Source of the DNA: Chloroflexota bacterium
GTDB taxonomy: Bacteria > Chloroflexota > Limnocylindria > Limnocylindrales > CSP1-4
DNA: 43,249 bases
Direction of reading: 5' to 3'
Assembly (NCBI GenBank): GCA_016781485.1
Contig: JADDQH010000017.1
Coordinates: 1 to 43,249 of the forward strand
In this document: positions 18,430-32,577 of the stretch, piece after piece
Layout of the letters: every line of letters starts with the position of its first letter
Numbering within the stretch: the first letter of the stretch is position 1
The notes under the pieces: generated by a model
The model's database searches: none
Told to the model about the DNA's origin: nothing
Seen by the model: only the letters and a program-made list of their open reading frames with translations
Translations under genes and position numbers: made by a program

Positions 18430-19092
18430 GTGATCCAACGCCCGCAACTCCCTGCCCAGCGCCGCCTCGTATCAGGCAAGGATGTCTCCCGGCTTCGCCG
18501 CGAAGGCCTTGTTCCCGCAGTCGTGTACGGCCACGGGGAGCCGTCGGAATCGATCCAGGTCGACGGCCGGGCGCTCGACCAGCTTCGTCGGACGGCCGGC
18601 AGGAACGCCATCGTCGACCTCCGCGTCGACGACGCGCGGCCGCGCCCCGTCCTCGTTCACGGCGTCCAGGAGCATCCCGTCAACCGCCGCGTCCTTCATG
18701 TGGACTTCTTCCTCGTGAACATGACGGAGGAGCTGACGGTGGACGTCCCGATCGCCATGACGGGGACGTCCGATGCCGCGGAGCGCCAGGGCGGGACGCT
18801 GCTTCACCTGCTCGACCAGGTGAAGGTTCGGGCGCTGCCAGCCGACCTTCCGCAGACGCTGGATCTCGACGTCACCCCGCTCGACTCGTTCGACGCGGTG
18901 CTCCACGTCCGGGACATCGCGCTCCCTCCTCGCGTGACGCTGCTGACGGATCCAGTCGAGCCGATCGCGCGCGTGACGCCGCCTCGCCTCGACCTGGAGC
19001 CGGTAACGGCTGAGCCGCCGGCCGAGGGCACGCCCGAGGTGGCAGCAGCCGTCGAAGAGACCGGAGATGGTTCGGAGGCGCCCGCGGGATAG
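18430..19092 (+). CDS. rplY: 50S ribosomal protein L25 (CTC form)
   Basis: Binds 5S rRNA in the large subunit. The 220-residue product is the long form. The L25 domain (about 8-95) has SGKDVSRLRREGLVPAVVYG and NRRVLHVDFFLVN. The C-terminal TL5/CTC beta domain (about 96-190) has TVDVPIAMTG, GGTLLHLLDQVKVRALPADLP and PVEPIARVTPPR. An acidic Pro/Glu/Ala tail ends it. The GTG start has GGAGG 9 nt upstream. It diverges from a stress-type response regulator, and CTC proteins are stress-linked in some bacteria, so joint control is conceivable but unproven. Confidence 0.95.
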   Translation: MIQRPQLPAQRRLVSGKDVSRLRREGLVPAVVYGHGEPSESIQVDGRALDQLRRTAGRNAIVDLRVDDARPRPVLVHGVQEHPVNRRVLHVDFFLVNMTEELTVDVPIAMTGTSDAAERQGGTLLHLLDQVKVRALPADLPQTLDLDVTPLDSFDAVLHVRDIALPPRVTLLTDPVEPIARVTPPRLDLEPVTAEPPAEGTPEVAAAVEETGDGSEAPAG

Positions 19093-19296
19093 CGGGATGT
19101 CTCGTCGCTATTCCCGGGCGGTCGCAGCCGCAGTGGAGGCTGGGCGTAGCGACGCGCCGAGCCCGTAGGGCGTGTCGTTCGCGAGCGCGACTGCGTCCCG
19201 CGTCCCGCCACGCTGTACGTCGCCTATCTTCCCGGGATGAGCCGTCGGTGGCGCGCCTGATCGCTGTCCATGATCGATCGAGTGGGTGTCGGGCCG

Positions 19297-19800
19297 TCAG
19301 CCGCCCAAGAGGTCGATCCCGCTGTCTGTCGCCGTGCCCAGCACGGCGTGGCCGATCAGTCCGCGCCAGTGCGTCTCCAGCGGGTAGGCATCGAACGGCG
19401 CGGCGAGCCCGAGCGCGCTGTTCGCGTACTCGTCGTTCACCGCCCAGAGCAGCAGGCCGTAGAGGAGGCCTCGCCCGGCGCGGACCAGTGGCACGCGATC
19501 GCGTAGCACGGCGTACACCGCGCCGGGAGCAACGCCCAGGCCGAAGTGGATCCCCTGCATGAGCATCGATCGCTGCGTCTCGTCGAGCGGCCTCCCGGAC
19601 ATCGTCTCGATCCGGTCGACGAGGTTCTCCACGGATCCCTTGCCGTTCGGGCGCGCGGCTTCCTCGCGCTGCTTCGTCTCCTGGGACTGGCCCTCGAGGA
19701 GACCGGTCGTCACGAGGTCCATCAGCCACGTCCCGACCGCGCCGGCAACGGCGCCCCGCGCCGCGTCCGCCAGCCACGAACCGCCTGCCGTCCGTCTCAC
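19297..19800 (-). CDS. Small membrane protein, YagU/DUF1440-like
   Basis: The 167-residue protein opens with a Gly/Ala helix (AARGAVAGAVGTWLMDLVTT). A polar middle follows with Glu/Lys/Gln (GQSQETKQREE), then helices around 82-105 and 110-130 and a final amphipathic stretch. The layout (Gly-rich first helix, GLGVAPGAVYAVLRDR, late His-Ala-x-x-Gly) resembles YagU/DUF1440-type and three other small membrane proteins in this window. The GTG at 19800 overlaps the stop of a 19-codon ORF with a strong ribosome site, so translation is probably coupled. Function unknown. Confidence 0.6.
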   Translation of the reverse strand: MRRTAGGSWLADAARGAVAGAVGTWLMDLVTTGLLEGQSQETKQREEAARPNGKGSVENLVDRIETMSGRPLDETQRSMLMQGIHFGLGVAPGAVYAVLRDRVPLVRAGRGLLYGLLLWAVNDEYANSALGLAAPFDAYPLETHWRGLIGHAVLGTATDSGIDLLGG

Positions 19801-19856
19801 AGCCAGGGCTCGCTGATCACATTGCCGCGGCGGTCGCGGCTTCCTCTGATCGCCAT
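19797..19856 (-). CDS. 19-residue ORF MAIRGSRDRRGNVISEPWL, coupled to the 19297 gene
   Basis: The ATG is preceded by a near-ideal Shine-Dalgarno (AAAGGGGAGG, 5 nt gap), the best in the window. The TGA overlaps the downstream GTG as GTGA. The peptide is hydrophilic with a C-terminal Trp-Leu. It may be a leader that delivers ribosomes to the membrane-protein gene, a real micro-protein, or the true N-terminus separated by a frameshift. Confidence 0.5.
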   Translation of the reverse strand: MAIRGSRDRRGNVISEPWL

Positions 19857-19984
19857 CGGATCCTCCCCTTTCGAGCCTTGACCCTACCTCGCCCGCGGCT
19901 CGATCGCCTTCACCTGGCCGCTGAGGACATCGACCCTGACCAGCGGACCCGCGGAACGATAGGGCGAGCCGGTGGTCGTGCTCG

Positions 19985-20620
19985 TCACTCCTTTAGCGCC
20001 TCGAGCGTGGAGTCAAGGAGGGCGTCGTCCGAGGCCGAGACGAGGTATACGGTAGCGCCGCGGCGGACGACTGCGGTCAGGAGTTCGCCTCTGGCGTTCC
20101 GCTCGTCAGTTCCGCGGGTAGTTCCCGCCACGGCTCGGGCCACGCGATCTACGTCGTTGCGACGGACCGTGACCGCCAGGATCGTCACTCGGCGTCCGTC
20201 ATGGGACGACCCTGCCGCCGAGATCACGACCGCCTCGTCCGCGTTACCGCGCCCGGCAGCGAGCACTGCCAGCACATCGGTCGCGTCCATGTTCCGTGAT
20301 CCTGAGAGCGCGGTGACACGCTCGAGATCGAGACGCGCGGCGTCGATGTGGATCCCATCGACGACCGTCGGCAAGACCGCCTCGACGGCCCCGGACCTCG
20401 AGGCTCCGCCACTGCTCGCGCTCGCCCCTGACAAGCCGGTGGACGAGCCGCCCGCCGACACCGTGAGGGTGCTGCTCGGCGTGTCGGAGTCGGTAAAGCG
20501 TTCGCCCGTTTCGGTCGGCTGAACGGCGGCCAGCAGGACGGCACCGACGAGTGTCAGCCCCCCAACGACGGCCAGGGCAAGTAGCGGGGCGGGCGGCCGT
20601 GTGCGCACGTCATCTTCCAT
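19985..20620 (-). CDS. Anchored extracytoplasmic protein, unknown function
   Basis: The 211-residue protein has a short cytoplasmic start (MEDDVRTRPP) and one membrane helix at about 10-32 (PLLALAVVGGLTLVGAVLLA). A Ser/Thr/Gly/Ala-rich linker (about 38-80) follows. The globular domain (about 82-211) is predicted alpha/beta (IHIDAARLDLERVTAL..., VTILAVTVRRNDVDRVARAV, GATVYLVSASDDALLDSTLEALKE). No Cys or catalytic motif is evident. It does not match a family I can name. It is downstream of the flavoprotein gene on the same strand, separated by 169 nt without a clear gene. Confidence 0.6.
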   Translation of the reverse strand: MEDDVRTRPPAPLLALAVVGGLTLVGAVLLAAVQPTETGERFTDSDTPSSTLTVSAGGSSTGLSGASASSGGASRSGAVEAVLPTVVDGIHIDAARLDLERVTALSGSRNMDATDVLAVLAAGRGNADEAVVISAAGSSHDGRRVTILAVTVRRNDVDRVARAVAGTTRGTDERNARGELLTAVVRRGATVYLVSASDDALLDSTLEALKE

Positions 20621-20789
20621 GACTAGGCGCGACCGCCGGACGGCTACCGGATGCGTACATCCACGCCCTCCCGCGAACGAGCCGACGATGCGGCCCCTGC
20701 TCCAGCACGGCAGAAGTGACCGGGCTGCCGAAGAACGGGTTCCTCGCCGACGTACGCCTCTTCCACGAGCCGGGCGTGGAGGGCATCGA

Positions 20790-22148
20790 CTACGCCTCCA
20801 GTTTCCGGGCTGCTTCGAGGAACAGGCCGCCCATCACGCGGGCTGTCGTCGGGAAGGCGTGGATCGTGTCTGCGAGGACTGCGAGCGGCGTCCGGAGCTT
20901 GATCGCGAGGACGGCTTCATGGATCGCCTCGCTCGCGCCCGGACCCGCGATGAACGCGCCGATCAGGACCTGCTCGCGGCGGTCGACGACGATGCTCACG
21001 TGCCCAGAAGCCTCTGCGACATATCCCTTCGCCGACGTCGCGAGGTCCGCTGTCTCCTCGAACGCGTCGTATCCCCGCTCCTGCCCCTGCTCGAGGCGAA
21101 GTCCGACGCCCGCGGTCTCCGGATCCGTATAGGTCGCACGGGGGATCGCGCGGTGATCGGGCCGGATGTCGTCGCCGAGCGCGATCCGAGCCGCGATCTC
21201 TCCCTGGTAGTGCGCGAGGTGCGTGTGCATCTCTGGTCCCGCCGCGTCGCCGACAACGAGCACGCCGTCCGCGACCCGCAGCTGCTCGTCGATGAGGGGC
21301 CGTCCGTCGCGGATCCGCGCCCCCACCGTTTCGAGGCCGAGATCAGCGATCGGCGCGGTCCTGCCGACGGCGAGGAGGACCTCATGCGCCTCGAGCGAGG
21401 CCCCGTCGGAGAGCTCGAGGCAGTGCGCGCCGTGGTGACCTCCGTGGGAGACGATCCGCTCGACCTGCGCGCGCTTCCTGATCTCCACACCATCGCTGCG
21501 GAGCGCCACCTCCAGCGCCTCTGAGTTCCGCGGGTGGTCGCGGTGGTTCAGTCGCTCGTTCCGGTCGACGATCGTGACCGGCACGTCGTAGCGGGCGTAG
21601 ACCTGAGCGAGCTCGACGGCGGTCGGGCCGCCGCCGAGGATGGCAAGGCTCCGTGGCAACTGCCGCGTGGCAGTCGCTTCGCGGTTGGTCCAGGGCGTGA
21701 TCGAGTCGAGGCCGGGGATGTCGGGGACAGTGGCGTTCGTCCCGACGGCGACGATGATCGTCTTCGCCTGGAGTGTCTCGCGCCTTCCATCCGAGTCGAC
21801 CGTGACACTCCCCGGCCCGGCGATACGCCCGGTTCCTCGGATGACCTTCGCCCCCGCATCCTCCAGGCTCCGGACGTGCCCACCGTCGTCCGGGAAGTCG
21901 ATTCCCTCCCGGTTGATCATGTAGTCCCGGAATGCGGACGCCTTGGCCCACGCGTAGTCCCCGCCTCCAGCATGGACGGCCGCGGCGTGGAGCAGCGCTT
22001 TGGACGGCATGCAGGCCCAGAAGGGGCATGACCCGCCGAACAGTTCGCGGTCGACGATCGCGACGCTCGCCCCGCGAGACCGCGCGAGCTGCGCAGCGGC
22101 TTCGCCTGCGGTTCCCGCGCCGATGATCACGATGTCGAACGTCTCCAT
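20790..22148 (-). CDS. Pyridine nucleotide-disulfide oxidoreductase (Lpd/MerA-like flavoprotein)
   Basis: A 452-residue FAD enzyme of the dihydrolipoamide dehydrogenase/mercuric reductase superfamily. Seen are IVIIGAGTAGEAAAQLARSR (6-25), redox pair C41-x4-C46 in GGSCPFWACMPSK, the NAD(P)H site AILGGGPTAVELAQVYARY, and FAD contact LVVGDAAG. A C-terminal dimerisation domain ends with IHAFPTTARVMGG, including the His proton acceptor region. The site CPFWAC instead of the usual CLNVGC and the missing MerA N-terminal metal domain and C-terminal Cys pair argue against true Lpd or MerA. The substrate is unknown. Confidence 0.85.
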   Translation of the reverse strand: METFDIVIIGAGTAGEAAAQLARSRGASVAIVDRELFGGSCPFWACMPSKALLHAAAVHAGGGDYAWAKASAFRDYMINREGIDFPDDGGHVRSLEDAGAKVIRGTGRIAGPGSVTVDSDGRRETLQAKTIIVAVGTNATVPDIPGLDSITPWTNREATATRQLPRSLAILGGGPTAVELAQVYARYDVPVTIVDRNERLNHRDHPRNSEALEVALRSDGVEIRKRAQVERIVSHGGHHGAHCLELSDGASLEAHEVLLAVGRTAPIADLGLETVGARIRDGRPLIDEQLRVADGVLVVGDAAGPEMHTHLAHYQGEIAARIALGDDIRPDHRAIPRATYTDPETAGVGLRLEQGQERGYDAFEETADLATSAKGYVAEASGHVSIVVDRREQVLIGAFIAGPGASEAIHEAVLAIKLRTPLAVLADTIHAFPTTARVMGGLFLEAARKLEA

Positions 22149-22399
22149 CCACTGCGCTCCATGGCTCGCTCCCGACTGTGCCGATCGTCGGCGCTCTCGG
22201 ACCGCCCGTCTGTATCCCGGGTCACGTTTCGAGCTTCGTCGTGAACTCGAGCGCGTTGGCGATCCGACGAGGCAGTGATCCCTCCGGACTCGAGCGCCAG
22301 AACACGACCTCCCGACGACTCGCAGGTGGTGGCATGCTGCAAACGCTGCGTGCCGGCGAGCACGCGCCCAGGTATCGGCTATGACGGGGAGACGGCGGC
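22149..22399. other. Intergenic, divergent; nothing recognised
   Basis: The 250 bp between the flavoprotein (minus) and the methyltransferase (plus) hold no frame I can support and no good TANNNT box at either start. GGGGAG lies about 10 nt before the GTG at 22400. Confidence 0.3.
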
Positions 22400-23227
22400 G
22401 TGGTGTCCCTACGGTCTCTTGTCCCGGCCATCCCCGATGGCGCCGCGGGACGGATCGCCAGCCTCTACTTCGAGGTCAGCTATCGGCTGCTTGCGGCTGC
22501 CGAAGGGCGCGAGTTCCTGCGAGCGTCAGCGGCTCCGGATGCACCAGCCGTCCACGGCTACTCGACGTTGCAGGATCTCGCGGCGCTCCTCGAGGCCCTC
22601 CACCCCTCGCCGGCCGACACTCTCATCGATCTCGGCTGCGGGATCGGGGAGGTTGCGATCGCGATGCACAGGCGGACCGGCTGCAGGGTGGTCGGGGTGG
22701 ACGCAGCGCCAAGCGCGATCGCGGAGGCGCGACGATCGGCGGCCGCGGACGGCGTGCACGCATCGGTGCGCTTCGAGGTGGCCGATCTCGCATCGCCGCC
22801 GGTCGGGGGGTCGGCCGCGTACGCGCTCGACTCGCTGATGTTCGTGCCGCGGCCGACGCAGGTGCTCGCGTCCGTGTCGCGGTCCCTGGAGCCGCCCGGC
22901 CGCGTCTTCGCCACGTTCGTCGATCACCGCGGTCTCGATCGCGACGGATTCGCTCGGTTCATCTCGGGCGCCGAGCTCGAACTGGAGCGACTCATCGACG
23001 TCACTGGCGCGCTCGGCCAGCGGAGCCGTGAGCGTGCGGCCGTGGCGAGGGGGCTGCTTCGAGCCCGACCGGCGTCGGCCGGGTCGCTCGGATTGCTGCT
23101 CGTGCTCGTCGAGGAAACGCTCTCGACATGGCTGATCAGGCGTCGTCGGCTGCGACGATGGCGGTTCACGGTGATCCGACCCGGTCGGGCCCGGCCTGAC
23201 CTGACCCGCCCCTCGACGGTTGCGTGA
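22400..23227 (+). CDS. Class I SAM-dependent methyltransferase
   Basis: In the 275-residue protein motif I is clear (TLIDLGCGIGEVAIAMH, residues 74-90). It is followed by the acidic end of strand 2 (VVGVDAAPSAIAEAR), FEVADLAS and DSLMFVPRPTQVL, where a methylation-type active-site loop is expected. The region RVFATFVDHRG matches strand 5. The C-terminal 60 residues are Arg-rich and Leu-rich, unlike typical family members. Start GTG 22400, with a second GTG next to it. Its stop (TGA 23225-23227) overlaps a GTG at 23224 in the next frame. Substrate unknown. Confidence 0.8.
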   Translation: MVSLRSLVPAIPDGAAGRIASLYFEVSYRLLAAAEGREFLRASAAPDAPAVHGYSTLQDLAALLEALHPSPADTLIDLGCGIGEVAIAMHRRTGCRVVGVDAAPSAIAEARRSAAADGVHASVRFEVADLASPPVGGSAAYALDSLMFVPRPTQVLASVSRSLEPPGRVFATFVDHRGLDRDGFARFISGAELELERLIDVTGALGQRSRERAAVARGLLRARPASAGSLGLLLVLVEETLSTWLIRRRRLRRWRFTVIRPGRARPDLTRPSTVA

Positions 23228-23257
23228 GCTCGCTTACGGCGATCGCGCGAGGACGGG

Positions 23258-23263
23258 TACCGT
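23258..23263 (+). promoter_or_regulatory. -10 box TACCGT, leaderless start of mini-ORF 23270
   Basis: TACCGT ends 6 nt before ATG 23270, the same geometry as the other leaderless starts in the window. Confidence 0.4.
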
Positions 23264-23269
23264 TCCGGC

Positions 23270-23314
23270 ATGCAAACCTCACCGTCGGCCACCGGCCCTC
23301 TGGATGGGCGATGA
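23270..23314 (+). CDS. Leader mini-ORF MQTSPSATGPLDGR, overlaps next start
   Basis: Fourteen codons beginning 6 nt after a TACCGT box. The stop TGA (23312-23314) overlaps the ATG of the SRPBCC gene (23311-23313) as ATGA. It has no Shine-Dalgarno of its own, as expected for a leaderless start. It matches the arrangement at 9764-9802 and supports ATG 23311 as the downstream start. Peptide function is doubtful. Confidence 0.4.
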   Translation: MQTSPSATGPLDGR

Positions 23315-23817
23315 GAGTCGTCACGATCGGTCCGGTGTCAACCAGCATCGCTGCGCCTCCTCAGCTCGTGTACCAGATGCTGTCCGCGATCGGACAGGGC
23401 GACGGACGCAATGGCGAGCGGGCCGAGGTGTTGCGGCGCAACGGCGACGAGCTCATCTGCGACTTCTGGACAAGGGTCAGTCTTCCTGGCGGCGTCGATC
23501 GGCTTGTCCGGACGCGCGAGCGCGTGATGCTCTGGCCGCCAGACAGGGTCGAGTACGAGCATCTCGATGGCCCGATCCGGGGACTGCGTGAATCGATCAC
23601 CGTCGCTCCCGAAGGGGGCGGTGGCACCCGGATGACCTACCTCGGGTCGTACGAGTCGCGCGGGATCGTCGATCACCTCCGAGTCCGTCTACTTGCCCGA
23701 CCTGCGATCACGCGCGTGATGCAGCACCACTTCGACCACGTCCGACACCGCGCGGAGGCTAGGGCCGCCCGAAGTCGCGTTTTTCGCCGCGATCCGTCGC
23801 TTACCCCGCCTCGATAG
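23311..23817 (+). CDS. SRPBCC (START/polyketide-cyclase fold) protein
   Basis: The 168-residue protein has the family layout: strand VSTSIAAPPQLVYQML at the N-terminus, the central strands ELICDFWTRVSLPGG and ERVMLWPPDRVEYEHLDGP, the turn GGGTRMTYLGSYESRG and a long C-terminal helix ITRVMQHHFDHVRHRAEAR. Members bind hydrophobic ligands such as lipids or polyketides. The usual wall-forming hydrophobic residues are present but the ligand is not inferable. The ATG at 23311 is preferred over a GTG at 23224 that would add 29 atypical residues, because a leader mini-ORF ends on it. It converges with the methyltransferase at 23904. Confidence 0.75.
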   Translation: MRVVTIGPVSTSIAAPPQLVYQMLSAIGQGDGRNGERAEVLRRNGDELICDFWTRVSLPGGVDRLVRTRERVMLWPPDRVEYEHLDGPIRGLRESITVAPEGGGGTRMTYLGSYESRGIVDHLRVRLLARPAITRVMQHHFDHVRHRAEARAARSRVFRRDPSLTPPR

Positions 23818-23851
23818 CCGAGATCTCCCCCGGCGCGCGGGATGCGGGGAT

Positions 23852-23899
23852 CCAGACGTCGCCGCCGTCGCTACGCGCTCGTTACCCGCCTGCGTCTGG
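23852..23899. terminator. Possible bidirectional hairpin between convergent genes
   Basis: CCAGACG (23852-23858) and CGTCTGG (23893-23899) are perfect inverted repeats with a GC-rich 34-nt loop between two convergent genes. There is no T tract, so an intrinsic terminator is only a possibility. Confidence 0.2.
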
Positions 23900-23903
23900 T
23901 CCC

Positions 23904-24707
23904 TCAGTCGGCACGGGCGACGACTGCGGAGTACCCCACGCGACCATCGCGCACGAGTCGCCGAGCTTCGTCGAAGACCGCCGCGACGCGACCCGGGTCG
24001 CCGAGTCGTGCGAGTCCGGGGCCGAAGTCACCGAGCTGGTCACTGCCAGCGTCGCGGGCGAGCGCCGCGAGCAGGGTGATGCGAGCCTCGACACGGTCGA
24101 TCAGGGCAGAGATGCTCGTGGTCTCGTCCCAAGCCCGAGCGACCGTGTACCCCGCCGAAACGACGAGCTCTTCGAGCTCGCCGGGGCGCCAGGCTTGTGA
24201 CAGGCACAGGACGCTCGCGAGCGGCTCGGGGGCCATGATCGCGTCGGTCGCCGTGACATCGCTGACGAGAAGGGTGCCGCCACTCGCGGTCACCCGCCGG
24301 ACCTCGTCCAGTGCACGTCGCTTGGAGGTCGTCGAGAGCACGCACTCGGCGACGACGCTGTCAAAGGTCCCGTCCGCGTACGGGAGGCGGAGCACCGACG
24401 CTTCGGTGAAGCGAATGGCGGCGCCGGCGTTCGCGGCCAGCGTGGTCGCCCGGCGTAACGCGGCGGCGCTCACATCGCATGCGTCCACCGTGAGGCCGAA
24501 CTCGAGCGCGGCAAGGCGGGCGCTTGTCCCCAAACCACATCCGGCGTCGAGCAGGTGGGCGCCCGGGGGCAGGCGCGCCTCGCCGAGGAGGCGACGGGTC
24601 GTCGCAAGTCCACCCGGGTGGAGTGACTGCCCCGCGATGAGTTCGACGAGCGGGTGGCCATACAGACCCGCGCAGCAAGCCTCGACGGCCGACGGCGCGA
24701 TGTCCAT
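23904..24707 (-). CDS. SAM methyltransferase (DVU_1556-like) coupled to a radical SAM enzyme
   Basis: The 267-residue protein has a distinctive N-terminus, YGHPLVELIAGQSLHPGGLA, close to the DVU_1556-type methyltransferases (consensus recalled from family knowledge). Motif I is HLLDAGCGLGTSARLAAL (51-68), strand 2 is VDACDVS, and the post-II loop FDSVVAECVLSTTSKRRAL has the Cys-Val-Leu-Ser of that group. Strand 5 is GGTLLVSDV. Its ATG shares bases with the radical SAM stop (TGATG), so both are made together, strongly implying a shared pathway. The methyl acceptor is unknown. Confidence 0.8.
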   Translation of the reverse strand: MDIAPSAVEACCAGLYGHPLVELIAGQSLHPGGLATTRRLLGEARLPPGAHLLDAGCGLGTSARLAALEFGLTVDACDVSAAALRRATTLAANAGAAIRFTEASVLRLPYADGTFDSVVAECVLSTTSKRRALDEVRRVTASGGTLLVSDVTATDAIMAPEPLASVLCLSQAWRPGELEELVVSAGYTVARAWDETTSISALIDRVEARITLLAALARDAGSDQLGDFGPGLARLGDPGRVAAVFDEARRLVRDGRVGYSAVVARAD

Positions 24708-26176
24708 CAGACGGCTGGGGGTGCAGGCGCGGCGGCGACGGCCGTGGCCACGGGAAGAGTCCGGCCGCGCCGGCGGGCGGCGAGCCTCGCCCTGGTCTCT
24801 TCTCGATAGCCCACCGTGTTGTAGGTGCAGAAGGGGATCATCCTTCCGTCATCCTGGAGGATGCCGATGCAGCACTTCATCGCCTTCTTGACGTCGAACG
24901 TCCACGGGTCGAGGAAGTCGCGCAGCTGGACCATGAAGACGCGGCGGGCGAGGTCGGTGAGCGCCGGCAGGTCGACGTCACACGCCACGCAGGCAAAGCG
25001 GTCAGCCGTGGGCTCGCCCGGCACCGACCCCGCGGACCAGAGGCCCTCGAGTGCGTGGAGGATGTCGCGGTCGATCGCCGGCAGCGAGCGGTTCGTGATG
25101 TAGTCGAGGTACTCATCGACGTCGAGCACGCGCGGGAGCGGGATCACGCCGCCGTCGTCGGACAGGTAGGCGTAGGTCACCGACGAGCAGGTCGGGAAGC
25201 AGCACGGGATCGGCACGAAGTCCGACGAGCGGAACGTCCCCGCCAGTTGCTCGTCGATCCGCCGGAGAACGTCGGGGATCGTCATCCGGCGGAGCGGATC
25301 GTGATCCGGGTGACGACCGGTGTGTGTCACCGGCTGGAACATCACGCCGCGAACCGCCGGGTGACGCAGGCCGAACTCGATGAGCGGGCCGACCTCATGC
25401 TCGTTGACGTCTCGCTCGACGGCGGCCACGAGCATCACGTGAAGGTCGGCCTCGGCCAGGCGATCGAGCGCGCGCAGCTTCGTCTCGAGCAGCGGCTCCC
25501 CACGGATCGTGCGGTATGTGTCGTCGGTCAGGCCATCGAACTGGAGGTAGATTAGCGGTCGCCGGGCCGCGAACTCGTCGAACCACGCGCCACCCTCGGC
25601 GATCCGGAGGCCATTCGTGTTGACCATCGTGAACCGGATGTCGCGGCTCTGGGCGGCATCGAGCATCGCGACGAGCTCCGGGTGGATCGTCGGTTCGCCG
25701 CCGGAGAACTGGACGACCTCCGGATGACCTTCGAGCTCGACGAACCGGTCGAGCATCGACTCGACCTCCGCGAGGGTGAGGTTGAAGCCTGCTCCGGCGC
25801 TGGCGAAGCAGACGGGGCAGTCCAGGTTGCACGCCGTGTTCACCTCGATGAGCGCGAGGCACGTGTGCTGGCGGTGCTCGGGGCAGAGCCCGCAGTCGAA
25901 CGGGCAGCCGCGCTCGACCTCCGTGGAGATGCGGACCGGCGCTTGCCCGGGCTTGTTGAACTTCGCCTGCTCGACGTACGCGCGTGCGTCGGCATAGATG
26001 AGCCCCTCGAACCAGCCGTGATCGGCGCACCGCTTCCGCAGGAACACCGCCTCGTTTCGGAGCAGCACCTGGGCATCGATCGCCCCGCGGCAGACCGGAC
26101 AGATCGACCGGGTGACCTCGTGAAGGATCTCTCCGTCAGGACGCGGCTCGGAAGGCCGGGTGCCGATCTCGGTCAT
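24707..26176 (-). CDS. Radical SAM enzyme, MJ0619/tetraether-synthase-like family
   Basis: The 489-residue protein begins with a Cys-rich region: C26-x2-C29, C50 in RCADHGWFEG, then GCPFDCGLCPEHRQHTC (C91, C95, C98, C106). The radical SAM cluster motif C116-x3-C120-x2-C123 (CNLDCPVC) follows, then the GGEPTIHPE loop, NTNG and QFDG. The C-terminal third has PIPCCFPTCSSVTYAY, FACVACD and KCCIGILQDDGRMIPFCTYN, giving several further cluster ligands. This full pattern is that of the MJ0619 family, whose archaeal member Tes joins lipid tails to make tetraethers. GGAGG lies 4 nt before ATG 26176. Lipid function is inference; family placement is firm. Confidence 0.85.
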   Translation of the reverse strand: MTEIGTRPSEPRPDGEILHEVTRSICPVCRGAIDAQVLLRNEAVFLRKRCADHGWFEGLIYADARAYVEQAKFNKPGQAPVRISTEVERGCPFDCGLCPEHRQHTCLALIEVNTACNLDCPVCFASAGAGFNLTLAEVESMLDRFVELEGHPEVVQFSGGEPTIHPELVAMLDAAQSRDIRFTMVNTNGLRIAEGGAWFDEFAARRPLIYLQFDGLTDDTYRTIRGEPLLETKLRALDRLAEADLHVMLVAAVERDVNEHEVGPLIEFGLRHPAVRGVMFQPVTHTGRHPDHDPLRRMTIPDVLRRIDEQLAGTFRSSDFVPIPCCFPTCSSVTYAYLSDDGGVIPLPRVLDVDEYLDYITNRSLPAIDRDILHALEGLWSAGSVPGEPTADRFACVACDVDLPALTDLARRVFMVQLRDFLDPWTFDVKKAMKCCIGILQDDGRMIPFCTYNTVGYREETRARLAARRRGRTLPVATAVAAAPAPPAV

Positions 26177-26220
26177 CACTCCTCCAGGGGTTCGCAGGTG
26201 CCCGCCAGCGTAGCGGTCGC

Positions 26221-26245
26221 AACGTCGCGGCGGCGTGACGACGTT
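26221..26245. promoter_or_regulatory. Inverted repeat AACGTCG-N11-CGACGTT, candidate operator
   Basis: A perfect 7-bp inverted repeat upstream of the radical SAM operon. A weak minus-strand -10 (TACGCT, about 26208-26213) lies just inside it, so a bound regulator would cover the promoter. No cognate regulator is adjacent. Confidence 0.3.
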
Positions 26246-26376
26246 ACAGCGCCGGCCGTCGCAGTCCCGGACACCACCGTCCTCGACACGGCCCGTACAT
26301 ATCGACAGCTCGAGACGTGCCCCGAGAAGCGGCCGAGGGTGGCCGGCAGGATGATGCAGGGGAGGAGGGCCCCGTA

Positions 26377-26419
26377 CGTAACGAACCTCACAGCCCGCGC
26401 GCACGCGACCGCCTACGTT
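26377..26419 (+). promoter_or_regulatory. CRP-like site (26377-26392) and -10 TACGTT (26414-26419)
   Basis: CGTAA-N6-TCACA matches 8 of 10 positions of TGTGA-N6-TCACA, with a perfect right half. Its centre (26384.5) is 41.5 bp from the GTG at 26426. The -10 box begins 12 bp before that GTG. This is class II activator geometry on a leaderless promoter, identical to that at 30394-30436. Confidence 0.55.
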
Positions 26420-26425
26420 CTGCGT

Positions 26426-27634
26426 GTGCTTCCGTCGCACCTCATGCCGGCCGTCGTCCTCGTCCTCGTCGTCGCCGCGGCCTGTCAGCCGTTCGCGGCC
26501 GGGGGCGGGCCGGCATCGACGCGCTCGCCGCTGAGCACCCCTGGTGACGCTGCCGCTGCACCGACTGCCGACGTCAGCCGACTCGACGTTTCGACGGCCG
26601 GGTGGAAGACGGACTTCGGGAAGGCGAGCGTGGACCTCGCGGAGTTCGCGAGCGGCGGTCCGCCTAAGGATGGGATCCCGCCGGTCGACGAACCACGATA
26701 CGAGTCGATCGACGCTGCACGTGGCTGGCTGGACGACCGATCGCCTGTCATCGCGCTCGTCGTCGACGGGAGCGCCCGCGCGTACCCGCTCGCGATCCTG
26801 ATCTGGCATGAGATCGTGAACGACTCCGTCGGCGGCAAGCCGGTCGTCGTTACCTTCTGCCCGCTCTGCAACACCGCGCTCGTGTTCGAGCGAACGCTCG
26901 ACGGAACCGCCTATGACTTCGGCACGACCGGGAACCTGCGGTTCAGCGACCTCGTGATGTACGACCGGCAGACCGAGAGCTGGTGGCAGCAGGCGACCGG
27001 CGAGGCGGTGGTCGGCCAGCTGACGGGCAAGCGGCTGACGTTCTTGCCGGCACAGATCGTCTCGCTTCACGACTTCGCGGTGGCCCACCCGGCGGGCGAC
27101 GTGCTCAGCCGGGAGACGGGGCATGCGCGCGACTACGGCCAGAACCCGTACCCCGGATACGACGCGGCCGGAGAACAGCCGTTCCTCTACGAGGGGGTGA
27201 TCGACGACCGCGTGGCGCCGAAGGAGCGGGTGGTGACGGTCATGCAGGGCGGCGACGCCGTCGCCTTCCCGTATCCAGAGCTCCGGAAGGTGGGGGTCGC
27301 GAGTGAGACGGTCGGTGGGCAGCCCGTCGTCGTGTTCTGGACGCCAGGGACTGCGTCGGCGCTCGACGCCGAGGCGGTGGATCTCGGGCGGGACGCGGGC
27401 GCAACGGGCGTCTTCCGGCCTGAGGTCGATGGTCGCCCGCTGTCGTTCCGGCGTCGAGCAGGGCCCGCCGCCGCGATCACGGATCAGGAGACCGGCTCCA
27501 CTTGGTCGGTGACCGGACGCGCGATCGAAGGCAGGCTGGCGGGCCAGCAGCTCGAGCCCGTCGTCCACGCTGACCACTTCTGGTTCGCCTGGGCTGCGTT
27601 CGCACCCGAGACGCGCGTCTGGACGGCGCCATGA
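26426..27634 (+). CDS. DUF3179-domain lipoprotein
   Basis: The 402-residue protein starts with a lipoprotein signal (VVLVLVVAAAC, lipid Cys20) and a Ser/Thr/Ala linker. The DUF3179 core runs about 85-400: HEIVNDSVGGKPVVVTFCPLC near 125, ALVFERTLDG, LRFSDLVMYDRQTESWW and QQATGEAVVGQLTGKRL. A C-terminal copy of the fold carries HADHFWFAWAAFAPET. The conserved Cys pair in FCPLCNT suggests a redox or metal role. The family has no firm function. The GTG at 26426 is preferred because of the promoter above. Its stop overlaps the TlpA-like ATG, so they form an operon with a thiol-redox protein. Confidence 0.85.
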   Translation: MLPSHLMPAVVLVLVVAAACQPFAAGGGPASTRSPLSTPGDAAAAPTADVSRLDVSTAGWKTDFGKASVDLAEFASGGPPKDGIPPVDEPRYESIDAARGWLDDRSPVIALVVDGSARAYPLAILIWHEIVNDSVGGKPVVVTFCPLCNTALVFERTLDGTAYDFGTTGNLRFSDLVMYDRQTESWWQQATGEAVVGQLTGKRLTFLPAQIVSLHDFAVAHPAGDVLSRETGHARDYGQNPYPGYDAAGEQPFLYEGVIDDRVAPKERVVTVMQGGDAVAFPYPELRKVGVASETVGGQPVVVFWTPGTASALDAEAVDLGRDAGATGVFRPEVDGRPLSFRRRAGPAAAITDQETGSTWSVTGRAIEGRLAGQQLEPVVHADHFWFAWAAFAPETRVWTAP

Positions 27635-28188
27635 CCCTCGCCGCGATCCTCGACGGACCCCGAAGAGCCCTCGTCTTCCTCGCTGCCTTTGCGTTGTTGC
27701 TCGCCGCATGTACCGGGGGCGCACTCGAGCCGTCGAGCCGCGATGCAGCCGCCGCATGGCGGACGTCGACGTTGACCGACGTCCGGACAGGTGCATCGTT
27801 CCGGGTCGCGGACCTGACGGGGAAGGTCGTCGCGATCGAGCCGATGGCGATCTGGTGCTCGAGTTGCGCTCTTCAGCAGAGGGAAGCCAGGGATGCCATC
27901 AGGGAGCTCCGGAGCGACGACCTGGTGTACATCAGCCTCGACGTCGACCCGGGAGAACAGGGATCCGCCCTCGCGGCCTACGCTGAGCGCGAAGGCTTCG
28001 AGTGGACGTTCGCGATCGCTCGGCCGGACGTGTCGCGCTCGCTGGCGGAAGAGTTCGGCGATCTGGTGCTCTCGCCTCCATCCACCCCGCTGATCGTCCT
28101 CGACCCGGAAGGACGGGTCGTCGTCGCGGACTTCGGGCACAAAGGCTCGAACGCGCTCGTAGCGACACTCGGGCAGTACCTCCCGTGA
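27631..28188 (+). CDS. TlpA/ResA-like thioredoxin lipoprotein
   Basis: The 185-residue lipoprotein has signal FLAAFALLLAAC with lipid Cys27. A thioredoxin fold of the TlpA/AhpC type follows: VADLTGKVVAIEPMAIWCSSC, active site W75-C76-x2-C79. A peroxiredoxin-like stretch LVYISLDVDP and the cis-Pro region PPSTPLIVLDPEGR come next. It should act outside the membrane, fed with electrons by a CcdA/DsbD protein; one is encoded 1.5 kb downstream. The ATG overlaps the DUF3179 stop (ATGA) and its own stop overlaps the next GTG. A role in reducing cytochrome apo-forms or repairing DUF3179-linked disulfides is inference. Confidence 0.85.
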   Translation: MTLAAILDGPRRALVFLAAFALLLAACTGGALEPSSRDAAAAWRTSTLTDVRTGASFRVADLTGKVVAIEPMAIWCSSCALQQREARDAIRELRSDDLVYISLDVDPGEQGSALAAYAEREGFEWTFAIARPDVSRSLAEEFGDLVLSPPSTPLIVLDPEGRVVVADFGHKGSNALVATLGQYLP

Positions 28189-28961
28189 CCGACGCAGCAC
28201 CTTGCGTTCCGTGTGTCGGCGTCGCCGCCGTCCCCGCGGTCACCGCACCGGAGATGGCCGAGATCGACCGGCTGGCGGTCGACGAGTTCGGGATCTCGCT
28301 GTCGCAGATGCTGGAGCAGGCAGGCTCGCACCTGGCGGAGGTCGCGCGACTCGAAGTCGACGGCGATCTGACGCACAAGCTGGTCGTCGTGGCTGTCGGC
28401 TCCGGGCACAACGGCGCCGGCGGGCTCGTCGCCGCCCGACACCTCGTGAACCGCGGCGCGTCCGTTCGCGTCATCCTGGCGCGCCCTGTCGCGCGCCTGG
28501 GCGCTGCCGCGCGTGATCAGGTCGCGACCCTCCTCGCGATGTCGGTGAGCTGTTGCGTGCCGGCGTACGACATGACGGACGAAGAACTGGAGGCGACGCT
28601 CGCAAGGGCAGATCTCATCGTGGACGCGCTCCTCGGCTACGGCGCCTCGGGCGCTCCGCGTGGCGAGGTCGAGCGAGAGATCGACTGGATCGTCCGGTCC
28701 GGCTCACGCGTCCTCAGCCTCGATGTGCCGTCGGGAGTCGATCCCGACACAGGTCAAGCCGCAGGAGCCGCCGTGACCGCCGACGCCACCGTCACCGTCG
28801 CGCTCCCGAAGCTCGGTCTGCTCTCGGGGGAAGGACGCGAGCGGAGCGGCCGGCTCTACCTTGCGGACATCGGGCTGCCCGCGGAGCTCTACCGACGCGT
28901 CGCGGTCGACGTCGACAGGGTGTTCTCGCGGGCGCGCATCGTGCGGATACAGTCCGAGTGA
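28185..28961 (+). CDS. nnrE: NAD(P)H-hydrate epimerase (YjeF N-domain)
   Basis: Epimerises damaged NAD(P)HX so that a dehydratase can repair it. The 258-residue product is the epimerase domain alone. Seen are APEMAEIDRLAVDEFGIS near 24-41, the phosphate loop VAVGSGHNGAGGLVAARHL, ADLIVDALLGYGASG and VLSLDVPSGVDPDTG, then TVALPKLGLLSGEGR. The usual NNGGDGL appears as HNGAGGL, a change within the binding loop that may affect cofactor contact. The partner dehydratase NnrD is not in the window. The GTG overlaps the TlpA stop (GTGA) and its stop touches the crp ATG (TGATG). Confidence 0.85.
   Translation: MTDAAPCVPCVGVAAVPAVTAPEMAEIDRLAVDEFGISLSQMLEQAGSHLAEVARLEVDGDLTHKLVVVAVGSGHNGAGGLVAARHLVNRGASVRVILARPVARLGAAARDQVATLLAMSVSCCVPAYDMTDEELEATLARADLIVDALLGYGASGAPRGEVEREIDWIVRSGSRVLSLDVPSGVDPDTGQAAGAAVTADATVTVALPKLGLLSGEGRERSGRLYLADIGLPAELYRRVAVDVDRVFSRARIVRIQSE
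28948..28953 (+). promoter_or_regulatory. -10 box TACAGT, leaderless start of the CRP-family gene
   Basis: TACAGT at the end of nnrE, then 7 nt, then ATG 28961. The regulator can thus be made both from the operon message and from its own promoter. Confidence 0.45.
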
Positions 28962-29686
28962 TGAACGTGGAGCAGCAACGCCGCTCGTTTTCAGAGAAGG
29001 TCGGCCTCCTTCGCGAACTGGAGTTGTTCGCGGGTCTCTCCCCCGACGACATCGATGCCATCGGGCACGCCACGACGATGACCCGCTGTTCGCGCGGAGA
29101 CGTCATCCTCTCGCCCGACGACGCGCCCGAGCGGATCCACATCCTCAAGAAGGGCAAGGTGCGTGTGTACCGGGTCACACCGGACGGGAAGCAGCTGACG
29201 CTCGACATCTACGACCGGGGCACCATCCTCGGTGATATGTCACTACTCGGTCAGGACCGCATCCAGGGCGCATACGCGGAAACCCTTGACGAGGCCGTCA
29301 TCTGCACGATCACGCCGGACGAGTTGCGCAGGCTCATCGAGCGGTACCCCATGATCGGGGTGAACGTCATCAACCATCTTTCGAGGCGTCTCCGGGAAGC
29401 CGAGCGCGAGCTCGAGGCGATGGCGTACCAGCGGGTCGGGCAGAGGCTCGCCCGCCGCCTCGTCGACCTGAGCCAGCGGTTCGGGGTCCAGACGGTCCGA
29501 GGCACGCTGATCCAGGCGCGGCTGACGCAGCAGGAGCTCGCCGAGATGATCGGCACGACGCGGGAGACGCTCGCGCACACGCTCACCGACTTCCGCCGCC
29601 GCGGACTCCTCGAGACCGCGAAGCACCATGTCGTCATCCGCGACGCTGAACGTCTCGCGGACGTGGCCGAGGGTGACGTCGACTGA
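28961..29686 (+). CDS. CRP/FNR-family transcriptional regulator
   Basis: The 241-residue protein has a cyclic-nucleotide-type effector domain (about 15-140; GDVILSPDDAPERIHILKKG, GTILGDMSLLGQ), a long dimer helix and a winged helix-turn-helix. The DNA-reading segment LTQQELAEMIGTTRETLAHTL has Arg-Glu at the positions that read GTGA in CRP. No FNR Cys cluster is present (only two isolated Cys), so it is not an iron-sulfur oxygen sensor. The Arg-type cAMP phosphate pocket is not obvious, so the effector is unknown. It sits inside the DUF3179-TlpA-NnrE run and probably acts on the two CRP-like sites nearby. Confidence 0.93.
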   Translation: MNVEQQRRSFSEKVGLLRELELFAGLSPDDIDAIGHATTMTRCSRGDVILSPDDAPERIHILKKGKVRVYRVTPDGKQLTLDIYDRGTILGDMSLLGQDRIQGAYAETLDEAVICTITPDELRRLIERYPMIGVNVINHLSRRLREAERELEAMAYQRVGQRLARRLVDLSQRFGVQTVRGTLIQARLTQQELAEMIGTTRETLAHTLTDFRRRGLLETAKHHVVIRDAERLADVAEGDVD

Positions 29687-29692
29687 CGGCGG

Positions 29693-30364
29693 ATGGAGAC
29701 ACTCATCCCGACGTTCCTCCTCGGCGTCGGCAGCGCAGCGAGTCCCTGTCTGCTCCCGCTCTACCCGGGTTTCATCGCCTATCTGGCAGGGAACAGAGGC
29801 GACGTCGAGCATCGGCGCAGCGCACCGCTGCTCGGCGGCGCGGTGCTGACAGGCGTACTGACGACCATGATCGCGCTGGCGGTCGTGCTCTCCGCCCTTG
29901 CCGTACCGCTCTCGCAGGTGCTCGCGGTGCTCGTCCCCGCGGTGGACGCGCTCCTCCTCGTCCTGGGCGCGCTTCTGATCACAGGGCGTAACCCCTTCGG
30001 CGGGCTGGCGGGTCGGTCCGTGCCGTTCGTCGCCCACCCGCTAGCGCAGGCGTACGTATACGGCGTGATGCTGGGACCGGTCGCGCTCCCTTGCGCCGGC
30101 CCGTTCATGATCGCGCTCCTCGCCATCTCGCTCGGCGTGACCGACGCCCTCGTGAGGATCGGCGGGTTCGTCGTTTATGGCCTGGGGTTCGGGCTGCCGC
30201 TGCTCGTGCTCTCGTTCGTCGCCGCGGCGCGGGCCCAGGCGATCGCGCGGTTCCTCGTCGAACACCATGCGCTGATCCTGAGAGCTGCCGGCGTCGTCCT
30301 CGTCGCGACCGCCGTCTACGACGTCGCTCTGAACTGGACGAACCTCGCGGGCTTCGCCGTCTAG
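29693..30364 (+). CDS. CcdA/DsbD-like thiol-disulfide transporter
   Basis: The 223-residue membrane protein has six helices. One conserved Cys lies near the start of helix 1 (C19, ASPCLLPLYPGF) and a second near the start of helix 4 (C134, LPCAGPF). These are the two Cys that pass electrons from cytoplasmic thioredoxin across the membrane in CcdA. The Pro-Cys setting and length match the family. It follows the CRP-family gene by 6 nt. The partner outside is probably the TlpA-like lipoprotein at 27631, and a cytoplasmic thioredoxin is encoded at 7811. Confidence 0.88.
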   Translation: METLIPTFLLGVGSAASPCLLPLYPGFIAYLAGNRGDVEHRRSAPLLGGAVLTGVLTTMIALAVVLSALAVPLSQVLAVLVPAVDALLLVLGALLITGRNPFGGLAGRSVPFVAHPLAQAYVYGVMLGPVALPCAGPFMIALLAISLGVTDALVRIGGFVVYGLGFGLPLLVLSFVAAARAQAIARFLVEHHALILRAAGVVLVATAVYDVALNWTNLAGFAV

Positions 30365-30393
30365 CCCCCCTCGTCGGGCGAAGCGCGACGCAG

Positions 30394-30436
30394 TGTGATG
30401 TGGGCCACAGCGTCAGGAGCGACTCACTCGTACGGT
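30394..30436 (+). promoter_or_regulatory. CRP-like site TGTGA-N6-CCACA (30394-30409) and -10 TACGGT (30431-30436)
   Basis: Nine of ten half-site positions match the CRP consensus. The centre (30401.5) is 41.5 bp from the ATG at 30443, and the -10 box begins 12 bp before the ATG. No -35 hexamer is evident, as expected for an activator-dependent class II promoter. Confidence 0.65.
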
Positions 30437-30442
30437 CGAGCC

Positions 30443-30721
30443 ATGAAGTACCTCACCAACCTCTTCGCCTCGTCCGGGGGCGAGTGCCGACACGTGCCCG
30501 CCGACACGCCGCAACCTCAGGCAGATCGATGCCAGGAGTGCGGTAGCCGCTTCAGCCTCCGGGTGTGCGCGACGTGCGGGCACGTTGGTTGCTGCGAGTC
30601 GCAGGCCGGAGATGCCCGCACTCACGCGCTCGGGGAGGGACATCCCGTCATCCGGTCGCTCCCGCTGACCCCGGGAGGCTTCACCTGGTGCTACGAGGAG
30701 CGGCGCTACGTCGCCGGCTGA
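30443..30721 (+). CDS. UBP-type zinc-finger protein
   Basis: The 92-residue protein is nearly all one ZnF-UBP domain. Ligands are visible as C14-x-H (ECRHV), RCQECGSRF, VCATCGHVGCCES and the two-His block THALGEGHPVIRS, ending with WCYEERRYV. Stand-alone bacterial UBP fingers are common in Actinomycetota and Chloroflexota. In eukaryotes the domain binds ubiquitin C-termini; the bacterial role is unknown. The leaderless ATG lies under a CRP-like site, so expression is predicted to follow the regulator at 28961. The next gene starts 60 nt downstream without a clear promoter. Confidence 0.88.
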   Translation: MKYLTNLFASSGGECRHVPADTPQPQADRCQECGSRFSLRVCATCGHVGCCESQAGDARTHALGEGHPVIRSLPLTPGGFTWCYEERRYVAG

Positions 30722-30781
30722 CGGGTGCGATCAGGGAAGGTCAAGGAGAGAGTCCCAGTCACGGATCGAAGGAGACACACG

Positions 30782-31324
30782 ATGACGAGCGTCGAGGTCG
30801 GACGACAGGGAGACGTCGCGGGGCAGGCACGACGAGGGTTGATAGGTGGGATCCTGGCCGGCATCGTGTTCGCGATGTTCGAGATGATCGCCGCTGTGGT
30901 CTTGATGGGCCCGCCAGCTTTCTTCATGCCGCTGAGGATGATCGGCGCGATCGTCCTGGGGCCAGCCGCGCTCGAGCCGGCGTATCCGCTGCCCGTCGCG
31001 GCAATGGTCGGGATGGGGCTCCACCTGATGAACTCGGCACTCTACGGAGCTGTGTTCGCGGTCGCGATCCTCGTCCTGCCGCGCGCGCTCAGGCAGACGC
31101 CTGGCGTCGTCTTGGCGGCGACCGCGTTCGGCGTGCTGCTGTGGCTCGTGAACTTCTTCGTCATCGCTCCCGTTGCCGGCTGGCGGTGGTTCCCGGAGGG
31201 CACGAACCACCTCGTCCAGTTCGTCGCGCACGCGTTCGCCTACGGCACGCTGCTCGGCGCGTACGTGGCGCGTCGGCCAGCAGAGGCAGAAGCTCGGGTC
31301 CAGGTCGCGTCTCCACCCCTCTAG
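30782..31324 (+). CDS. Four-helix membrane protein, unknown function
   Basis: The 180-residue protein has a polar start (about 1-18) and helices near 20-48 (LIGGILAGIVFAMFEMIAAVVLMG), 68-98, 100-125 and 140-165. His residues within helices (MGLHLMNSALYG, LVQFVAHAFAYG) recur at like positions in other small membrane proteins here, so a heme or metal role is thinkable but not shown. AGGAG lies 7 nt before the ATG. It probably shares the message of the UBP gene upstream. Looks like DUF6789-type proteins, but I am not certain of the family. Confidence 0.65.
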   Translation: MTSVEVGRQGDVAGQARRGLIGGILAGIVFAMFEMIAAVVLMGPPAFFMPLRMIGAIVLGPAALEPAYPLPVAAMVGMGLHLMNSALYGAVFAVAILVLPRALRQTPGVVLAATAFGVLLWLVNFFVIAPVAGWRWFPEGTNHLVQFVAHAFAYGTLLGAYVARRPAEAEARVQVASPPL

Positions 31325-31344
31325 GTTCGGCGGCGCCTGTGGGT

Positions 31345-32577
31345 TCAGCCCTCGAGATCTCGGAACTGTCGGATCAGCCCGCGGTACGCGTCGGCCACGG
31401 GCCGCTCCCGTCGGTCGAGGTCATAGAGTCCGATCGGGTTCACCATGTTGCGCTCGTCCGCGAGCGCAACGTCCCAGTCGACCTGGTCCGTCAGGCTGTA
31501 CCAGGTGAACCCGAGGACAGGCACGCCCTCGGACCGCATCAGCCAGACGTTCAGGAACTGACGCCACAACCATCTGGGAGCCTCGTCCTCGCCGCCCCCG
31601 ATGTTGTTGGTCTCGGTGTGCATGACCGGACGGTGGTACCGCTCGAAGTATCCCCGCGTGATTAGATACCACCCGTAGATGTCGCCAGCCGGCTGGACAT
31701 CCCCTCCGGACGTCACGATCTGTTCGTTGCGTCTGTAGAAGTCGTTGCCCATCACGATCCGGTCTCCGAGCCTGTGGTTCATGAACCACAGGTACTCATC
31801 GTCCCCGAGCCCGCAGCGCCGCAGGTAGTCGCGGATGTCCTCGCGGACCGGCCGTGAGTAGAGGAGGTCGAGCGACAGGAACCGCCGCTGGTTCTCGAAG
31901 TCCGCGACGCGGACACAGGCCTCGTCCTGAGCCCCCTGATGGAAGTACTCAGCACTCTCACTCTGGACGAACCAGGCGTCAGGGGTCTGCTCGAGGATGC
32001 ACTCGATCGCGAGCAGGTTCGCGCGGCAGAGGTGCTTGAGCGCGGTGACGAAGCCCTCTTCGCTGCGTAGCTGCTCGTTCCACATCCCGTACAGCCCGCT
32101 GAGCTTCGAGCACACGAAGATCTCGTTCACGGGAGTGTAGAGCCGGACCCACGGGTACCGCCGCGCGAACGCTCGCGCGAACTCCGCGAAGTGATATGGC
32201 CAGTCGGGGTTCTGGAAGTCGCCGATCCAGTCCGGCACGCCGAAGTGGCAGAGGTCGACGATCGGGGTGATCGTGAGCCGGCGCATCTCCGCGAACACCT
32301 CGTCCGAGAAGCTCCAGTCGTACGCGCCGGGGCCGACGTGCATCCGGTAGTAGGGCGGCCCGTAGCGGAGCGCCCTGATCCCGAGCTCAGCGACGAGGGC
32401 GAAGTCTTCGCGCCAGCGCTCGTAGTGGAAGCACTTCTCGAGCTCGTCGACCCGACGCCGCCTGCCGTCCCGCGCCGTGATGGTCGGGTAGCTGCACTCG
32501 ATGCCGGTCGCGAACAGGAACGGCTCGGGAAGGCCGATCTCCCTTGCGAACCGAAGCGAGTCGTCGTGAACGGTCAT
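31345..32577 (-). CDS. Glycoside hydrolase family 1-like protein
   Basis: A 410-residue (beta/alpha)8 enzyme of the GH1 type. Near the N-terminus ATGIECSYP and FHYERWREDFALVAELGIRALRYG match the beginning of beta-glucosidases. The acid/base Glu is E152 in LYTPVNEIF (variant of TxNEP) and the nucleophile is probably E322 in HTETNN (variant of xTENG). Both motifs are altered, so substrate range may differ from standard beta-glucosidases. The end, GFTWYSLTDQVDWDVAL, matches the family. The ATG overlaps the stop of the upstream membrane-protein gene (TGATG). No signal peptide, so it acts in the cytoplasm. Confidence 0.85.
   Translation of the reverse strand: MTVHDDSLRFAREIGLPEPFLFATGIECSYPTITARDGRRRRVDELEKCFHYERWREDFALVAELGIRALRYGPPYYRMHVGPGAYDWSFSDEVFAEMRRLTITPIVDLCHFGVPDWIGDFQNPDWPYHFAEFARAFARRYPWVRLYTPVNEIFVCSKLSGLYGMWNEQLRSEEGFVTALKHLCRANLLAIECILEQTPDAWFVQSESAEYFHQGAQDEACVRVADFENQRRFLSLDLLYSRPVREDIRDYLRRCGLGDDEYLWFMNHRLGDRIVMGNDFYRRNEQIVTSGGDVQPAGDIYGWYLITRGYFERYHRPVMHTETNNIGGGEDEAPRWLWRQFLNVWLMRSEGVPVLGFTWYSLTDQVDWDVALADERNMVNPIGLYDLDRRERPVADAYRGLIRQFRDLEG

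Follow-up and report, generated by a model that had tools for sequence, protein, structure and literature searches.

An ArsM-like methyltransferase paired with a Tes-type radical SAM protein in an apparently undescribed branch of the Tes/TrsS family

A gene pair in Chloroflexota contig JADDQH010000017.1 (the window, the whole stretch of 43,249 nucleotides that was analysed) encodes a radical SAM protein (rSAM) of the Tes/TrsS family and a class I SAM methyltransferase, and appears to belong to a third branch of that family, of which no description was found in the literature searched. By the tests made, the rSAM is a member of the MJ0619-type superfamily, and the pair is not to be assigned to Tes, TrsS or ArsM. 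As a tentative explanation, we propose that the two proteins form an rSAM/ArsM-like module, which may make an alkylated thiolate- or metalloid-bound product.

Results

The TGA stop codon of the rSAM gene and the ATG of the methyltransferase gene share a 4-nt overlap (ATGA), in agreement with the preliminary description, which had also proposed a 489-residue protein with the full Tes-type cysteine layout; all Tes-type metal motifs were indeed found (Table 1). In Pfam, the rSAM matched the radical SAM (PF04055, 66.4 bits, gathering threshold 29.5) and HMPTM zinc-ribbon (PF23545, 52.5 bits, gathering threshold 27) domains, both over threshold. Among curated NCBIfam models, its top match was TrsS (NF045646, 358 bits, under the cut-off of 490), and it scored 318 bits with Tes (NF045702), under the cut-off of 450. 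The best curated model for the methyltransferase was DVU1556 (NF045667, 130 bits, under the cut-off of 155), and its score with ArsM (NF008823) was 52 bits at a cut-off of 263.

Table 1. Positions of the gene pair, its cysteine motifs and neighbouring features in the window.
Feature	Position	Strand	Remark
Radical SAM protein, 489 aa	24707..26176	minus	third clade of Tes/TrsS (MJ0619-type) family
Rubredoxin-type motif C26xxC29..C50xxH53	26018..26101	minus	Tes counterpart C9, C12, C33, H36 (PMC9433317)
N-terminal auxiliary cluster motif C91xxxC95xxC98..H101	25874..25906	minus	
Radical SAM motif C116xxxC120xxC123	25808..25831	minus	
C325-C326 and C330	25187..25204	minus	clade-specific pair; C330 at C-terminal cluster ligand position
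C396xxC399	24980..24991	minus	clade-specific; absent from Tes rows; 36/36 MT-type, 7/7 LgtA
C435-C436..C450	24827..24874	minus	C435 and C450 at ligand positions of the C-terminal cluster
Class I SAM methyltransferase, 267 aa	23904..24707	minus	DVU_1556-like, ArsM-type cysteines; ATG overlaps rSAM stop
Methyltransferase C11-C12	24672..24677	minus	aligns with N-terminal CC of ArsM; 53/54 each
Methyltransferase C122	24342..24344	minus	aligns with 'NCV' cysteine of ArsM; 54/54
Methyltransferase C168	24204..24206	minus	aligns with 'CIxGA' cysteine of ArsM; 54/54
SRPBCC (Polyketide_cyc2) protein	23224..23817	plus	recurrent third partner; convergent with pair here
MerA/dihydrolipoamide-dehydrogenase-like flavoprotein	20790..22148	minus	under MerA cut-off; relatives directly upstream of pair elsewhere
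7-bp inverted repeat, formerly proposed operator	26221..26245		not supported

In a 76-row maximum-likelihood tree, the window rSAM was placed inside a 43-row clade (support 99/96), separate from both the clade of archaeal and acidobacterial Tes (100/100) and that of TrsS (100/98), and an 87-row quick tree agreed in the placement of the Tes, TrsS and window groups; the rSAM trees left out Mss, the proven bacterial membrane-spanning lipid synthase. Judged by its scores and by this phylogeny, which had been put forward as a check, the window rSAM is not a Tes. A Euryarchaeota genome (G526) encodes a true Tes (623 bits) together with a member of the window clade and its methyltransferase.

Among 400 Chloroflexota genomes, a single Tes passed the cut-off (G472, L136); it lies on a 3.6-kb contig and is possibly contamination. 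A Tes-related protein of about 700 residues without the N-terminal cluster cysteines occurs in most Acidobacteriaceae genomes searched and in one Chloroflexota genome (L172-L180, L159, L100); it is a candidate for the iso-diabolic acid enzyme. A Planctomycetota/Myxococcota branch (L042, L047, L054) carries SDR and aminotransferase genes after the radical SAM gene and has tandem paralogues.

The closest PDB structure to the rSAM is Tes/GDGT-MAS (7tol, E=3e-79), which its AlphaFold model (pLDDT 86) matches along the whole length with a TM-score of 0.79-0.80 and 30% identity; over the alignment used, the rSAM is 27-32% identical to true Tes proteins. Read against the Tes ligands of PMC9433317, the Cys/His ligands of all four metal sites are present, with C330, C435 and C450 of the C-terminal cluster assigned by conservation and alignment. 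The position of Tes Met439, the labile fourth ligand, is Met in 9/9 Tes, 6/6 rows of a second acidobacterial group and 14/14 TrsS rows, and in 0/23 window-type rows, where it is mostly Gln, Arg, Lys or His. Tyr459 is kept throughout the Tes and second-acidobacterial rows and replaced in every window-type and TrsS row; the window rSAM has R419 and I439 at the two positions. As Tes M439A and Y459 variants stay active (PMC9433317), both positions are diagnostic clade markers and no proof of a different reaction. In the larger row set, C325, C396 and C399 are Cys in 36/36 rows of the methyltransferase-linked (MT) type and C326 in 34/36, and the LgtA rows (7/7; see below) have Cys at all four positions, so that they may form an extra or altered metal site. 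The hydrophobic fraction of the C-terminal helical region, used as a proxy for a lipid pocket, failed to separate the rSAM groups.

The methyltransferase carries the four ArsM-type cysteines, as seen in an alignment with seven ArsM proteins of Chloroflexota that each exceed the NF008823 cut-off, and in this respect it looks like a thiolate (ArsM-type) enzyme. TrsS-linked methyltransferases retain two of the four, C122 and C168, even though they stand beside molybdenum enzymes. As fold and profile of the window methyltransferase are nearer to RebM/AtmM-type enzymes than to ArsM, ArsM membership is not claimed; the window genome carries a separate, true ArsM.

The pairing, whose conservation had been put forward as a check, is indeed conserved: each of the 53 MT-type loci examined has the methyltransferase gene 3' of the rSAM gene and in the same orientation. 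Many of them show the 4-nt stop/start overlap, and in Dehalococcoidia an SRPBCC gene is found between the two. The pair occurs in Chloroflexota, Actinomycetes and a few Alphaproteobacteria, and the methyltransferase is present for 14/14 close Actinomycete members. Across 121 Chloroflexota genomes, the six best DVU1556-type matches (115-139 bits) came from six genomes with the rSAM, each adjoining it, and subsequent matches fell to a generic level.

The methyltransferase is missing in the sister branches, namely in LgtA, a nested subclade of 7 rows (100/100), and in the outer branches, LgtB and Rhizobiales (5/5 Rhizobiales loci inspected). A divergent Lgt-like gene is instead mostly found directly upstream of the rSAM gene (Chloroflexota and Rhizobiales loci L066-L069, L090, L091, L093, L097, L101, L106 and L244-L248), or downstream of it in a Kiritimatiellota locus (L025). 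This paralogue scores 50-86 bits against an Lgt cut-off of 118.9, and in every Lgt-type Chloroflexota genome tested another Lgt, encoded elsewhere, scores higher; apparently, the Lgt-like and Tes-like proteins are a second, undescribed pair. It resembles the window pair in the rSAM family and, for LgtA, in the added cysteines, and differs in that the divergent Lgt paralogue replaces the methyltransferase. In Rhizobiales, the three C-terminal cluster cysteines of the Lgt-linked rSAM are changed to Ser, Ser and Asp/Glu in 11/11 aligned rows (L207-L216, L218), so the Lgt branches need not perform Tes chemistry.

The SRPBCC proteins near the pair, which have a lipid-transport-type fold, are homologous across three lineages, the Chloroflexota class of the window, Dehalococcoidia and Actinomycetes. 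MerA-like flavoproteins are often encoded directly upstream of, or near, the pair, and MerR, a weak MerT-like protein, CcdA and TlpA recur in Actinomycete loci. A true MerA gene lies 3-13 kb from the pair in five of the 11 MT-type genomes having it (G003, G022, G354, G507 and Bradyrhizobium G527, with HMA/ArsR neighbours), against 0.12 expected (Poisson about 2e-7, or about 8e-6 with two related genomes counted once), where the distance limit of 14 kb was chosen after seeing the data; the Bradyrhizobium locus is an island of MerT and a MerB-MerA fusion. Among 15 actinomycete and alphaproteobacterial genomes with the pair, taken as an independent set, a single true MerA was present, 2.3 Mb off. 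Mercury is therefore not obligatory, and the linkage was rejected as an indication of function and is given as context only. An arsenic operon was also rejected, as the 25 commonest families listed from 86 neighbour proteins included no arsenic pump or reductase (ArsB, Acr3 or ArsC).

Further genes recur around the pair. DUF3179, TlpA-like redoxin and stand-alone YjeF_N genes (window 26444-28188 and 28185-28961) are found near MT-type loci. Relatives of a small multi-pass membrane protein (30866-31324) lie near the pair in several Chloroflexota classes, and one of them (L198:13071-13544) gave no Pfam match. A second methyltransferase-domain gene (22400-23227) is conserved next to the module among close relatives (L002-L005, L137).

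The operator that had been proposed upstream of the pair was not substantiated. The 7-bp palindrome exists, yet about 0.44 such matches are expected in the window at up to two mismatches, and it was not seen upstream in the nearest relatives, whose upstream DNA aligns poorly; the candidate was rejected. An Rfam search of positions 19000-31500 and a promoter/terminator scan returned nothing.

Discussion

The rSAM is like Tes/GDGT-MAS (MJ0619, 7TOL/7TOM) in its full-length fold, the rubredoxin site, the N- and C-terminal clusters and the radical SAM motifs, and differs from it in the replaced Met439 and Tyr459, the added C325, C326 and C396xxC399, and the partner methyltransferase. From this family the preliminary description had derived a possible action on lipid tails; its family assignment (Tes-type fold and cofactor motifs) and the coupling to a methyltransferase stand, while its lipid reading finds no support in this branch. 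An enzyme that couples or functionalises acyl or alkyl chains, with a methyltransferase acting on the chains or the head group, would accord with the predicted Tes-like fold across the full length, the lipid-transport-type SRPBCC neighbour, the activity of the Tes variants and the proposal of bacterial Tes homologues, Chloroflexota included, as brGDGT enzymes (PMC8941075, PMC11868695). It would also fit the sister branches in Chloroflexota, Rhizobiales and a Kiritimatiellota genome, most rows of which stand beside an Lgt-like gene of the diacylglyceryl transferase family, a partner that is the only hint of lipid. We nevertheless regard it as unlikely, given that the rSAM falls outside the Tes clade holding the acidobacterial homologues, that Met439 and Tyr459 are missing and a cysteine set is added, that archaeon G526 has a true Tes plus this pair, and that the three C-terminal cluster cysteines are gone from the Lgt-linked enzymes of Rhizobiales. 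The product of the pair is probably not a membrane-spanning lipid.

The nearest curated models are those of the TrsS (seleno)protein and the DVU_1556 methyltransferase, families that also co-occur; as in TrsS loci, the window methyltransferase adjoins a Tes/TrsS-type rSAM gene, and C122 and C168 are common to both methyltransferases. The pair might share the role that these have in sulfate reducers and clostridia, a cofactor or maturation step, freed here from the molybdenum-hydroxylase locus. This we consider quite unlikely: the gene order is reversed, the methyltransferase being upstream in most TrsS loci, its N-terminal CC is additional, both scores are under cut-off, Met439 is conserved in TrsS and not in the window clade, the clades are separate, and no Mop, XdhC, NTP transferase or C-GCAxxG-C-C gene lies near MT-type loci. 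A methylated small molecule that is neither a lipid nor metal-bearing (a natural product, quinone or thiol cofactor), with structural or redox-active cysteines, is suggested by the fold and profile of the methyltransferase, nearest to the natural-product O-/N-methyltransferases AtmM, RebM, MitM and TleD, and by thiol-redox neighbours (flavoprotein disulfide reductases, TlpA, CcdA, DsbA and glutaredoxin-TrxR); it does not seem likely either, as no further biosynthetic gene keeps a fixed place next to the pair and the methyltransferase cysteines match those of ArsM one for one.

The explanation we tentatively prefer, an rSAM/ArsM-like module for an alkylated thiolate- or metalloid-bound product, is favoured by this match, the separate clade, the constant pairing, the homologous SRPBCC proteins and the mercury-related genes near some loci. 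Against it stand the RebM/AtmM-type fold and profile of the methyltransferase and its low ArsM score, the separate ArsM of the window genome, the C122 and C168 kept by TrsS-linked methyltransferases and the independent set in which mercury was not obligatory. Four conserved cysteines are required by most ArsM, which are known to pair with the radical SAM enzymes ArsS for arsenosugars and ArsL for arsinothricin (PMC8552651); these systems also combine an rSAM with a cysteine-bearing methyltransferase. They differ in that the window methyltransferase is no ArsM by score and in the arsenic genes, which are lacking from the commonest neighbour families listed; for ArsL, just three conserved cysteines are reported, probably for one cluster (PMC8552651). 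The window module would comprise two biosynthetic enzymes, often with the SRPBCC protein. The rSAM would generate a 5'-deoxyadenosyl radical and use it to abstract a hydrogen from an unactivated carbon. The substrate would be small or hydrophobic and might be presented by the SRPBCC protein. Sulfur, or a metal or metalloid held by thiolates, would capture the carbon radical in place of a second lipid tail. The methyltransferase would then methylate the thiolate- or metalloid-bound centre, with As, Hg, Se and S as candidate soft atoms, so that the pair would work like ArsS-ArsM or ArsL-ArsM, but with a Tes-type enzyme. In its boldest form, a Tes-type rSAM would bond an unactivated carbon to a metalloid (or a soft metal) and the ArsM-like partner would complete the alkylation; this is a long shot. 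If true, Chloroflexota and Actinomycetes would have a new route to organometal(loid) compounds, perhaps including arsenolipids.

Bacterial Tes homologues, among which Chloroflexota are prominent, were counted by BLAST at 30% identity (PMC11868695), and such counts are taken to indicate membrane-spanning lipids, which are in use as climate proxies. As the identity of the window rSAM to Tes is near this threshold, some of the counts may be enzymes with another job. The third clade also offers a handle on the function of TrsS, and its cultured hosts, Actinopolyspora and Bradyrhizobium erythrophlei, provide a testable system for radical chemistry combined with a thiolate methyltransferase.
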